This document shows positions 29,586-34,817 of a DNA stretch of 64,000 nucleotides, piece by piece. A program made the position numbers and the translations under genes. The DNA is from Convivina praedatoris. Lineage in GTDB: Bacteria; Bacillota; Bacilli; Lactobacillales; Lactobacillaceae. The DNA is taken from contig NZ_CAKOET010000004.1 of assembly GCF_933208495.1 (NCBI RefSeq), positions 62,001-126,000 of the forward strand. The letters run 5' to 3'. Numbering within the stretch: the first letter of the stretch is position 1; each line of letters begins with the position of its first letter. The notes below the pieces were generated by a model. That model was not told the origin of the DNA, made no database searches, and saw nothing but the letters and a program-made list of their open reading frames with translations.

Positions 29586-30164
29586 ATGAAAGTCCGTTTT
29601 ACCATGGATAAAATAACCCGTGACGGTAACCCCGTTTTACGGGAAATCAGTCAGGCCGTCCCCTTCCCCCTCAGTGACGAAAATCGTCGCTTAGCCCAGG
29701 ATATGATGACCTATTTAGAAGTTTCCCAGGATGATGAAGCCAACGAAAAATATGGGCTCCGTCCAGGAGTTGGCCTTGCTGCCCCACAGGTTGGTTATGC
29801 CCTTCAAATGGCAGCGATCTTAATTCCAGCACAAAACCCTCAAGAAAATGACGAGGAACCTTACTTTAAAGGCGTAATTTTCAATCCAGTCATTGTTAGT
29901 GAAGCCGTACAACGAGGAGCCTTAAACGTTGGTGAGGGTTGTCTATCAGTTGATGAAGATGTTCCTGGTTTTGTTCCCCGTTCCAATCGGATTACCGTTC
30001 GCTACCAAGACGAAGAGGGGCAAAGTCAAACCATTAAACTGCGCGGTTATCCAGCCATTGTCTTTCAGCATGAAATTGATCATCTTCACGGACATTTATA
30101 CTATGATCATATCAATCGAAATGATCCTTGGCATGTTGACGATCAAACTAAATATATTGAATAA
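29586..30164 (+). CDS. def: Peptide deformylase
   Basis: 192 residues from the ATG at 29586, 6 nt after AAGGAG (the frame also opens at a TTG at 29571, which overlaps that site). All three family motifs are present: GVGLAAPQVG, EGCLSV and HEIDHLHG, whose Cys and two His bind the metal. It removes the formyl group from new proteins. Type 2 insert between motifs, as in Gram-positives. One of few plus-strand genes, with its own promoter and terminator. Confidence 0.97.
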   Translation: MKVRFTMDKITRDGNPVLREISQAVPFPLSDENRRLAQDMMTYLEVSQDDEANEKYGLRPGVGLAAPQVGYALQMAAILIPAQNPQENDEEPYFKGVIFNPVIVSEAVQRGALNVGEGCLSVDEDVPGFVPRSNRITVRYQDEEGQSQTIKLRGYPAIVFQHEIDHLHGHLYYDHINRNDPWHVDDQTKYIE

Positions 30165-30192
30165 AAAAGCAATCCAGCTGGATTGCTTTTTT
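30163..30192. terminator. Bidirectional terminator between def and dnaJ
   Basis: Perfect 30-bp palindrome AAAAAAGCAATCCAG/CTGGATTGCTTTTTT, serving def and the convergent dnaJ. Confidence 0.92.
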
Positions 30193-30198
30193 ACTTGC

Positions 30199-31116
30199 TT
30201 ATAAATCAAAAATTGACTTCTTTTTACTACGTTTAATATTTGAAACACTAGCAAACTCTTCCAAGGCATTCTTCTGATCTTTATTTAGACGAGTTGGGAC
30301 TACAACATTAACCACCACAAATTGATCCCCATGACCGCTACCATGTAAGCGAGGAGCTCCCTTTCCACCTAAGCGGAATCGCCGCCCATTTTGCGTACCA
30401 GCCGGAATTTTTAGCTTGACATCCCCCTGAACAGTTTTAACATCAATCTCGTCACCTAAGGCAGCACTGACAAAGCTAATATCTTGTTGCAAATAGATGT
30501 CAGCTCCATCACGCTCGAAACCTTCAGATGAGGCACTGACCGAGAAGACAACGTACAAATCACCTTGAGGACCGCCGTTAACACCCGATTCTCCTTGACC
30601 ATTCAAACGCATTTGTTGACCAGTTTCAACACCGGCTGGGACTTTTACCTTAACTTCATGTTGTTGTCCTTGACCATCGGCCTCACGATTATATTTAATC
30701 GTTTTCTCTGTACCAAAAATAGCTTCATCAAAGGTTAAGTGCATCCGGTACTGTAAATCCCGTCCTTTACGAGGAGCATTGGGATCAAAGCCGCCACCAA
30801 ACATTTGACTAAAGATATCACCCAAGTCAGAAAAATCGCTAAAGCCACCCTGTCCGCCTTGGAAACCGCCAAATCCTTGACCGCCGAAACCGCCCTGGGC
30901 ACCAGCAGCACCAAACTGATCATACTGGGAACGCTTTTGAGGATCTCCTAAAGTTTCAAAAGCTTCCTGAATATCTTTATACTTATCTTCAGCTCCAGGT
31001 TCATGGTTCAAATCTGGATGATATTTTTTAGATAGCTTACGATAAGCTTTTTTTATTTCATCCTGACTAGCATTTTTATCTACACCTAAACGCTCATAAA
31101 ATTCAGTATTATTCAC
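30199..31116 (-). CDS. dnaJ: DnaJ chaperone lacking the zinc-finger domain
   Basis: 305 residues. J domain at 1-70 with HPD at 33-35, Gly/Phe-rich region about 71-110 ([18 protein letters not shown]), then two beta-rich substrate-binding domains and a C-terminal dimerisation part. The four CxxCxGxG repeats expected between about 145 and 210 are absent, and the protein has no cysteine at all; [21 protein letters not shown] spans the gap. Start is GTG at 31116 with AGGAG 7 nt upstream. It is last in hrcA-grpE-dnaK-dnaJ, so it is the partner DnaJ of this DnaK. Confidence 0.92.
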
Positions 31117-33115: not shown

Positions 33116-33718
33116 TTACTTTGTTGCCACAACTACCATGGCTGGACGGATAACGCGGTCATGCAATAAGTAACCCTTTTGCAAAACTCGAGCTACTTGA
33201 TCAGCTTCAACATCATCGACTTCATCAGCACTCACGTTTTGAATTCCTTGCATGGTGTTAGGATCAAACTCTTCGCCAACCTTACCTGTTTCAGTAATGC
33301 CGTTATCAACTAGGGCTTGACGCAATGTCTTGAGGGTCATTTCAACCCCTTTTTTGATTTGAAGGGCGATTTCATCTTCAGCATCTTCAACCGCTAAAGC
33401 TCGTTCTAAATTGTCCACTACTGGCAAAACCGCTGTTGCTAAGCGTTGTCCGTCATACTTACGTATATTTGAAATTTCACGGGCATTACGCTGTTGAATA
33501 TTTTGCACTTCAGCTTGACTGCGTAACAATTGATCTTCTAAATCCCCCACTTGTTTTTCTAACTGGGCGATTTGATCATCAGCTTCAATTGCAACCTGAT
33601 CTTGATTAGCAGTTTGGGCAGTCTCTACAACCTGCTCAGTCTCCGCTGTTTGACCATTATCCTGATCTTGTTTTAATGCTTGATCGGTTTGAACTTGTTC
33701 TTTGTCCTCTTTTGCCAC
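33116..33718 (-). CDS. grpE: GrpE nucleotide exchange factor
   Basis: 200 residues: a long acidic/glutamine-rich N-terminus (about 1-50), a coiled-coil dimer helix (about 50-110), and the beta domain with NGITETGKVGEEFDPNTMQGI and the C-terminal LLHDRVIRPAMVVVA. Start is GTG with AGGAGG 8 nt upstream. It releases ADP from DnaK. Confidence 0.97.
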   Translation of the reverse strand: MAKEDKEQVQTDQALKQDQDNGQTAETEQVVETAQTANQDQVAIEADDQIAQLEKQVGDLEDQLLRSQAEVQNIQQRNAREISNIRKYDGQRLATAVLPVVDNLERALAVEDAEDEIALQIKKGVEMTLKTLRQALVDNGITETGKVGEEFDPNTMQGIQNVSADEVDDVEADQVARVLQKGYLLHDRVIRPAMVVVATK

Positions 33719-33739: not shown

Positions 33740-34771
33740 TTATACGTAATCTAACATCTTTTGTGTTAAAGCTTGACCAAATATATTTAAAATTAAAGCA
33801 TTTTGGGCATAAGGCATGCGAACCGGTCCAACCAAAATTATTAGACCCTGATCCTGCTGACCAATTGAAAAATGTCGACTTAAGACGCTATATGAATCTA
33901 ATAAGTCTTCACCAATCTCACTACCAACTTTAATTGAAATACCAGAACCAGATAACCGAGCTAAATGTCGCAAGGCCTGCGGTGAATCTAACAATTCCAG
34001 CAATCGACGAGCCTTAGTCAAATCGTCAAAATGATTTTCAGTCAGTTCCAAAACATTTAACCGCCCACCAACATGAACATGTTCTTCAATAGATTGAGCT
34101 AAAACCTCACCAAACAATTGTAAGAAAGCGGCTGGACTTTGAATTTCACGAGTTAACTGAATTGGTAACTCACCGGAATTCATCATCGTCAGCACTTCTT
34201 TAACCGGTCGGCCAACCATTTGGGCGTTAATATAAGTAACCATATTGGTTAGCGAATCAGCATGAAGACCTTGCGGTAACTTGAAAGTCTGACTCGTTAC
34301 TTTACCGTAGTTAGTCACCAGGACGGTAATTAATTGCCGTCCCTCCAGTGGAATCAATTGAAAACTAGAAATTTTCAAATCCACATAAGGTGGTTTTAAA
34401 ATCAAAGCCGTACAGTTGGTTAACTCCGACAAGCGCTTCGCCGTTTCATCTAGGAAGTCATCAATTTCATGAAAATTACCACTCAAACTGGTTAATAGTA
34501 GTTCAATGTCACTTTGACTAACCGACCGACTAATCATTAAATGATCAAGATAATAACGGTAACCAGCAACTGAAGGTACTCGACCAGCAGAAGTATGTAA
34601 CTTACGAATCAAATCGGCTTCTTCTAGAACCGCCATCTCATTACGAATAGTGGCTGGACTAACTTTAATATTAAGTTGTTCTTGTAACTTTTTTGATCCG
34701 ACAGCATGGGCCGTTTGCGTATACTGATAAACAATTGCTCCTAAAATCAACTTTTGTCGTTCAGTTAACAT
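33740..34771 (-). CDS. hrcA: Heat-inducible repressor HrcA
   Basis: 343 residues from the ATG at 34771 ([21 protein letters not shown]), which has AGGTGG 7 nt upstream; the extra 10 codons to 34801 overlap the CIRCE site and are not used. Winged-helix DNA-binding domain ([19 protein letters not shown]), then GAF-like domain. It binds CIRCE and shuts off this operon, including itself. Good CIRCE-like sites lie directly upstream. Confidence 0.96.
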
Positions 34772-34790
34772 TAACTTCCCACCTTTCGGT

Positions 34791-34817
34791 TTAGCACTCA
34801 TATTATTCGACTGCCAA
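34791..34817. promoter_or_regulatory. CIRCE operator, proximal
   Basis: TTAGCACTC-N9-GACTGCCAA, a match to the consensus TTAGCACTC-N9-GAGTGCTAA with a perfect left arm and 7 of 9 in the right arm, with the canonical 9-bp spacer. It sits at and just after the expected hrcA transcription start. Confidence 0.8.

Follow-up and report, generated by a model that had tools for sequence, protein, structure and literature searches.

A zinc finger-less DnaJ of apparent class A descent as the only J-domain protein found in Convivina praedatoris

The last gene of the heat-shock operon of Convivina praedatoris encodes a DnaJ protein devoid of the zinc finger, and the same holds for the corresponding protein throughout the clade formed by the former Leuconostocaceae. 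With a probability of about 0.88, we consider this protein to be the housekeeping DnaJ, descended from a class A protein from which the finger was excised once, in the ancestor of the clade, and serving as the sole J protein. The gene was found in a window of 64,000 nucleotides (the whole stretch of DNA that was analyzed), and the evidence comes from domain searches, structure prediction, phylogenetic analysis and comparison of related genomes.

The gene, its product and its operon

The operon has the order hrcA-grpE-dnaK-dnaJ, which is preserved in the relatives compared (Table 1). As read from the sequence, dnaJ starts with GTG preceded by AGGAG, and def, beyond the terminator-like repeat, is convergent with it. 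Because the CIRCE-like element overlaps the first possible start of hrcA, translation of this gene probably begins at an ATG further inside the ORF, at 34771.

Table 1. Coordinates of the features discussed (positions in the window unless another locus is named)
Feature	Position	Strand	Basis or remark
Terminator-like inverted repeat in the dnaJ-def intergenic region, flanked by A/T runs	30162..30191	.	sequence reading
dnaJ, encoding 305 aa without cysteine or zinc finger	30199..31116	-	no other J-domain gene found in the genome
C-terminal tail, about residues 295-305, with the ending KKKSIFDL	30202..30234	-	resembles the tail in class A relatives
C-terminal domains I and II, residues 121-274	30295..30756	-	Pfam PF01556; model pLDDT about 90
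Junction, residues 144-153, at the site that holds the 65-residue zinc-finger unit in class A relatives	30658..30687	-
G/F region with DIF motif, about residues 67-117	30766..30918	-	sequence; DIF block conserved in alignment A1
J domain with HPD motif, residues 5-66	30919..31104	-	Pfam PF00226; HPD invariant in alignment A1
dnaK, 613 aa	31186..33027	-
grpE	33116..33718	-
hrcA, longest ORF	33740..34801	-
CIRCE-like HrcA operator, degenerate	34791..34817	.	2 mismatches, 0 expected by chance
Hsp33, redox-switch chaperone without the switch	L136-L147; window genome G000:C2:233935-234765
Adenylate kinase without zinc lid	window genome L224:11560-12114; also L211, L220, L235, L238/L239, L244, L249	-	strand of L224
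RpoC with site 2 lost	L210:3602-7171 (Leuconostoc); L252/L253 (G430)

An earlier note, made from the sequence alone, had recognized a J domain, a G/F region and both beta domains in this protein and had reported the absence of CxxCxGxG repeats and of cysteine. Both observations were borne out: Pfam matches were obtained for the J domain (PF00226; E = 2.8e-25) and for DnaJ_C (PF01556; E = 9.8e-50), a scan of the sequence found 0 repeats and 0 cysteines, and the Pfam search of the protein returned no match to the zinc-finger model PF00684. The architecture is that of class B (type II) proteins, namely, J domain, G/F region and C-terminal domains (CTDs) I and II, with the zinc finger on which class A membership depends being absent. 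The match to the bacterial DnaJ equivalog model TIGR02349 is split into two stretches and, at 313.9 bits, falls below the cut-off of 377.2.

Alignment with class A DnaJ of Lactobacillaceae and Streptococcus pneumoniae placed the junction within CTD I; the finger of the class A relatives measures 65 residues from the first Cys to the last Gly, and in the window protein the gap is bridged by 14 residues. In the predicted structure (mean pLDDT 77, about 90 in the C-terminal domains and low at residues 73-105), the junction is closed as a two-strand hairpin, with strands at residues 136-146 and 149-159. The HPD motif, the DIF motif and many CTD residues are kept across 23 sequences from both finger-less lineages described below, the HPD and many of the CTD residues being invariant.

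Distribution of the finger-less protein

The genome (1.52 Mb, 98.45% complete) contains exactly one match to PF00226, the window dnaJ. A second, canonical dnaJ, which the earlier note had proposed to look for, was not found: PF00684 matches in this genome only below the cut-off, in the intact zinc modules of two UvrA-type proteins. The earlier note had also considered that an assembly deletion at 30640-30700, an interval within which the junction falls, might have removed the finger. A deletion introduced during sequencing or assembly of the window genome could leave such a clean in-frame gap, and nothing else supports it; it is refuted by the absence of the finger from 67 of 67 related genomes and by the same structure in many named type strains, and we assign it almost no probability.

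These 67 genomes emerged from a family sample of 397, in which the other 330 all carry PF00684 above the cut-off; they are the sampled members of seven genera, which, as identical sequences show, include Convivina, Fructobacillus and Leuconostoc. A J-domain protein is encoded in each of the 67, with an ORF of about 300-340 aa at dnaJ (frame-broken in draft G007). In the proteins from 30 of these genomes and in the named loci there is no CxxCxGxG repeat and no cysteine, whereas thirty class A genera of the same family have at least eight cysteines together with four repeats or, in one case, three. The window protein is 98% identical to the DnaJ of Convivina intestini. One of the seven genera, g28, lacks MutS1 in 5/5 genomes, and the other clade genera tested have it; because absence of MutS1 is a published mark of Oenococcus (PMC6498615), g28 is taken to be Oenococcus, and we infer that g17 is Weissella. 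The comparison across genera that the earlier note had suggested thus shows the finger to be absent throughout the clade, in Convivina, Fructobacillus and Leuconostoc by name and in Oenococcus and Weissella by these assignments, so that what the note had called unusual is universal in this group.

In an order sample of 148 genomes, the finger is missing outside the clade only in genome G430. A phylum sample of 299 showed it to be absent only from the window genome and from four scattered genomes; of these four, three show no DnaJ_C and one has a finger reduced to two repeats. Several individual cases were observed. The DnaJ of genome G720 (L133), encoded next to dnaK, has only two of the four CxxCxGxG repeats, that is, a half-deleted zinc finger; one genome of the Fructobacillus group has an additional J domain (G001:C22:43767-43952), which is part of an ORF of 191 aa; and in the draft of Leuconostoc fallax KCTC 3537 (L086, L015), dnaJ, dnaK and hslO are all frame-broken, probably through sequencing errors.

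Because the HPD, DIF and CTD residues are conserved, the gene resides in the heat-shock operon and no other J protein was found in the genome, the window protein appears to be functional and to be the working DnaJ; if so, substrate transfer must run through the J domain, the G/F region and the CTDs alone. Alternatively, the loss of a domain could be a sign of decay, the J-protein role having become dispensable in the clade. This is extremely unlikely, given that each of the 67 genomes carries a J-domain gene, that the HPD and many CTD residues are invariant among the 23 sequences, that the operon and the CIRCE element are preserved, and that the only broken copy seen, in L. fallax, comes from a draft with further broken genes.

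Descent from class A and a second, independent loss

Among PDB entries, the window protein matches the S. pneumoniae class A DnaJ best, with 396 bits, compared with 174 bits for the class B protein of Thermus, and outside the zinc finger and the G/F region, it is 70-72% identical to class A proteins of Streptococcaceae and 36-47% identical to other class B proteins. A tree was computed without the finger columns, with six metagenome proteins and a class B paralog from the same class (L134) as class B references, E. coli CbpA itself lying outside both the tree and the approximately unbiased (AU) test. In this tree, the finger-less clade forms a single group (91/82, moderate support) beside Streptococcaceae and inside the class A proteins of Lactobacillaceae and Lactobacillales, and the AU test rejects its grouping with the seven other class B proteins (p = 9.5e-6). 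Because the clade nests within Lactobacillales class A and the class B grouping is rejected, the phylogenetic analysis identifies the window DnaJ as a class A ortholog from which the finger was excised in place.

The earlier note had instead interpreted the protein as a type II-like (CbpA-like) DnaJ that replaced the type I protein in its own operon. The class B architecture stands, as does the location in the dnaK operon, in the place of the class A gene; the CbpA-like replacement very probably does not, since sequence similarity and the tree place the protein inside Lactobacillales class A and the AU test rejects its grouping with the class B proteins sampled. Displacement of the operon-borne class A gene by a class B gene, whether transferred or paralogous, would be consistent with the architecture and with the Foldseek search, in which the Thermus class B protein was the top match to the model (E = 3.8e-26), narrowly above the class A protein of S. 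pneumoniae (E = 3.1e-25). Nonetheless, it is very unlikely in light of the sequence comparison and the tree, the C-terminal tail resembling that of class A relatives, and the score of 184 bits against the CbpA model NF007618, for which the cut-off is 403; for the class B proteins sampled, it is refuted by the tree and the AU test.

In the same tree, the DnaJ of Streptococcaceae joins the finger-less clade inside Lactobacillaceae (99/88), and the two share the N-terminal start MNNTEFYxRLGV; this suggests that dnaJ passed from one of these lineages to the other long ago.

A finger-less DnaJ is also encoded in two genomes (G430 and G822; loci L124 and L135) of genus g59, which belongs to another family of the order, f8. 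The G430 protein groups with class A proteins of its own family (80/46, weak support), and its gene lies behind dnaK. A common origin with the finger-less clade was considered and is rejected by the AU test (p = 0.007), so that, by the phylogenetic evidence, the finger was lost in this genus independently and in place. Given that the two losses are separate, at least two in-place losses appear to have occurred in Lactobacillales.

Cysteine loss, proposed mechanism and known systems

Other zinc proteins of the clade were affected as well. The scores of Hsp33 fell into two groups, and reading of the sequences showed that the protein keeps 0/4 zinc cysteines in the clade genomes (12/12, representing six genera) and 4/4 in G430 and seven class A relatives. 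The four-cysteine zinc lid of adenylate kinase (about 32 residues; present in Lactobacillus) is missing in 7/7 clade genomes from six genera, which may reflect an in-place deletion or may reflect replacement by a short-lid enzyme; G430 keeps a lid of the CCCD type. In RpoC, zinc site 1 is kept in every genome in which the protein was found. Site 2, the spacing of which (74/7/3) we take to be that of E. coli C814/C888/C895/C898, reads CCCC in five class A Lactobacillaceae, among them the reference G036. One g17 genome has this site intact and a second one has CCCD; Leuconostoc (NSSD) and G430 (DCSS) have lost it. In addition, the probable zinc-binding cysteine tetrad of MurT in Firmicutes has been reported to be replaced by Ser and Asp in Oenococcus, Weissella and Leuconostoc (PMC6085368).

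The trend extends to cysteine content in general. Across 123 ortholog pairs, a few of which may be antisense ORFs (one such pair was demonstrated), Leuconostoc has 49 cysteines and Lactobacillus 134, a ratio of about a third; the number is lower in Leuconostoc in 55 pairs and higher in 9 (sign test, 3.5e-9), with 350 tryptophans on either side. This set was enlarged from an initial 52 pairs that contained no zinc proteins. In eight clade genomes, the ratio to Lactobacillus is 0.15-0.62 for cysteine and 0.82-1.18 for tryptophan; in class A relatives, the cysteine ratio is 0.47-1.58, based on small samples. Zinc sites were not lost wholesale, because UvrA, RpoC site 1 and a Fur-like protein retain their cysteines in the clade.

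Judging from Hsp33, adenylate kinase, MurT, RpoC site 2 of Leuconostoc and the cysteine counts, the change in DnaJ looks like part of a wider retreat from cysteine and zinc-thiolate sites. That the former Leuconostocaceae underwent such a removal throughout the lineage, as an adaptation to a cytosol short of zinc or unsafe for thiols, is in our estimate about as likely as not. The competing view, that the finger loss was isolated and neutral and that the other losses are coincidental, draws on the persistence of some zinc sites in the clade and on G430, where, of the sites checked, only RpoC site 2 and the DnaJ finger are gone while the zinc ligands of Hsp33 and adenylate kinase are kept; loss of the finger therefore does not require the wider trend. 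Still, with ligands gone from four other proteins of the same clade (in RpoC, from site 2 of Leuconostoc) and cysteine, but not tryptophan, depleted in all eight genomes, we consider coincidence rather unlikely.

Under the preferred reading, a single excision in the ancestor shared by the former Leuconostocaceae would have taken out the zinc-finger unit, and the ends would have been rejoined as a short hairpin on CTD I. With no class A copy retained, the one class B protein would perform all J-domain work: the J domain would trigger ATP hydrolysis by DnaK, domains I and II of the dimer would bind clients, and hand-over to DnaK would proceed without zinc centers, through the J domain, the G/F region and the CTDs, as in class B proteins. 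The likely cause would be a retreat of the whole lineage from cysteines and zinc-thiolate sites, which would have cost Hsp33 and adenylate kinase their zinc sites as well. Class B proteins handle clients with stronger disaggregation and depend on the EEVD-like tail of Hsp70. The EEV tail of DnaK (DGDFEEV ending) was considered as a matching adaptation; it occurs in the clade but also in some class A relatives and is uninformative. ClpB gave no match above the cut-off in 13/13 clade genomes checked, but because it is present in G430 and absent from several class A relatives too, we claim no link to the finger.

The closest known system is the orthologous class A DnaJ of Streptococcaceae and Lactobacillaceae, exemplified by that of S. 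pneumoniae (PDB 6jzb), which shares with the window protein the J domain, the G/F region with DIF, CTDs I and II and the tail, and, in Lactobacillaceae, the place in the operon, but differs from it in carrying four CxxCxGxG repeats, with eight zinc cysteines; the window protein has none of either. Canonical class B proteins usually, although not strictly, lack the class A C-terminal tail, of which the window protein keeps a short version. Thermus thermophilus DnaJ (PDB 4j80, 9dvi) is a finger-less class B protein with a fold similar to the window model; about 35% identical and from another lineage, it acts in a DnaK-DnaJ-DafA complex and offers a precedent for a class B DnaJ working with DnaK. 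E. coli CbpA has the same domains and no finger but is an accessory paralog beside a class A DnaJ, whereas the window protein stands alone. MurT lost its probable zinc tetrad in the same genera, yet it is a peptidoglycan enzyme in which residues were substituted, whereas in DnaJ a domain was excised (PMC6085368).

Conversion of class A to class B proteins by finger loss is already known. According to the main text of PMC12799103, which does not mention Lactobacillales or Leuconostoc, actinobacterial DnaJ2B likewise arose from a class A ancestor through complete loss of the finger, independently of the CbpA clade; there, however, a duplicate lost the finger, whereas in the present clade the single copy did, leaving no class A protein. 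Our two bacterial cases add to that claim and, set against the account given there, indicate that duplication is not required. In the open-access literature, the scope of our search, no earlier report on DnaJ or Hsp33 of Leuconostocaceae was found; as far as that literature shows, the loss from a single copy, its extent over a whole family, the additional instance in a different family, and the connection to Hsp33, adenylate kinase and RpoC are new.

The zinc finger of DnaJ is held to assist the hand-over of clients to DnaK, and yet a whole group of bacteria associated with food and plants (Leuconostoc, Weissella, Oenococcus, Fructobacillus and Convivina) lives with a finger-less sole DnaJ. 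The role of the finger can thus be tested with natural proteins, the sister orthologs being about 70% identical elsewhere, and the cysteine losses in several further proteins of the clade provide a natural test of what zinc sites are for. That Hsp33 lost its zinc switch in parallel, and other proteins their zinc sites, points to a cause acting on the whole cell; if this is correct, the DnaJ and Hsp33 chaperones of the clade would run without any thiol or zinc chemistry.
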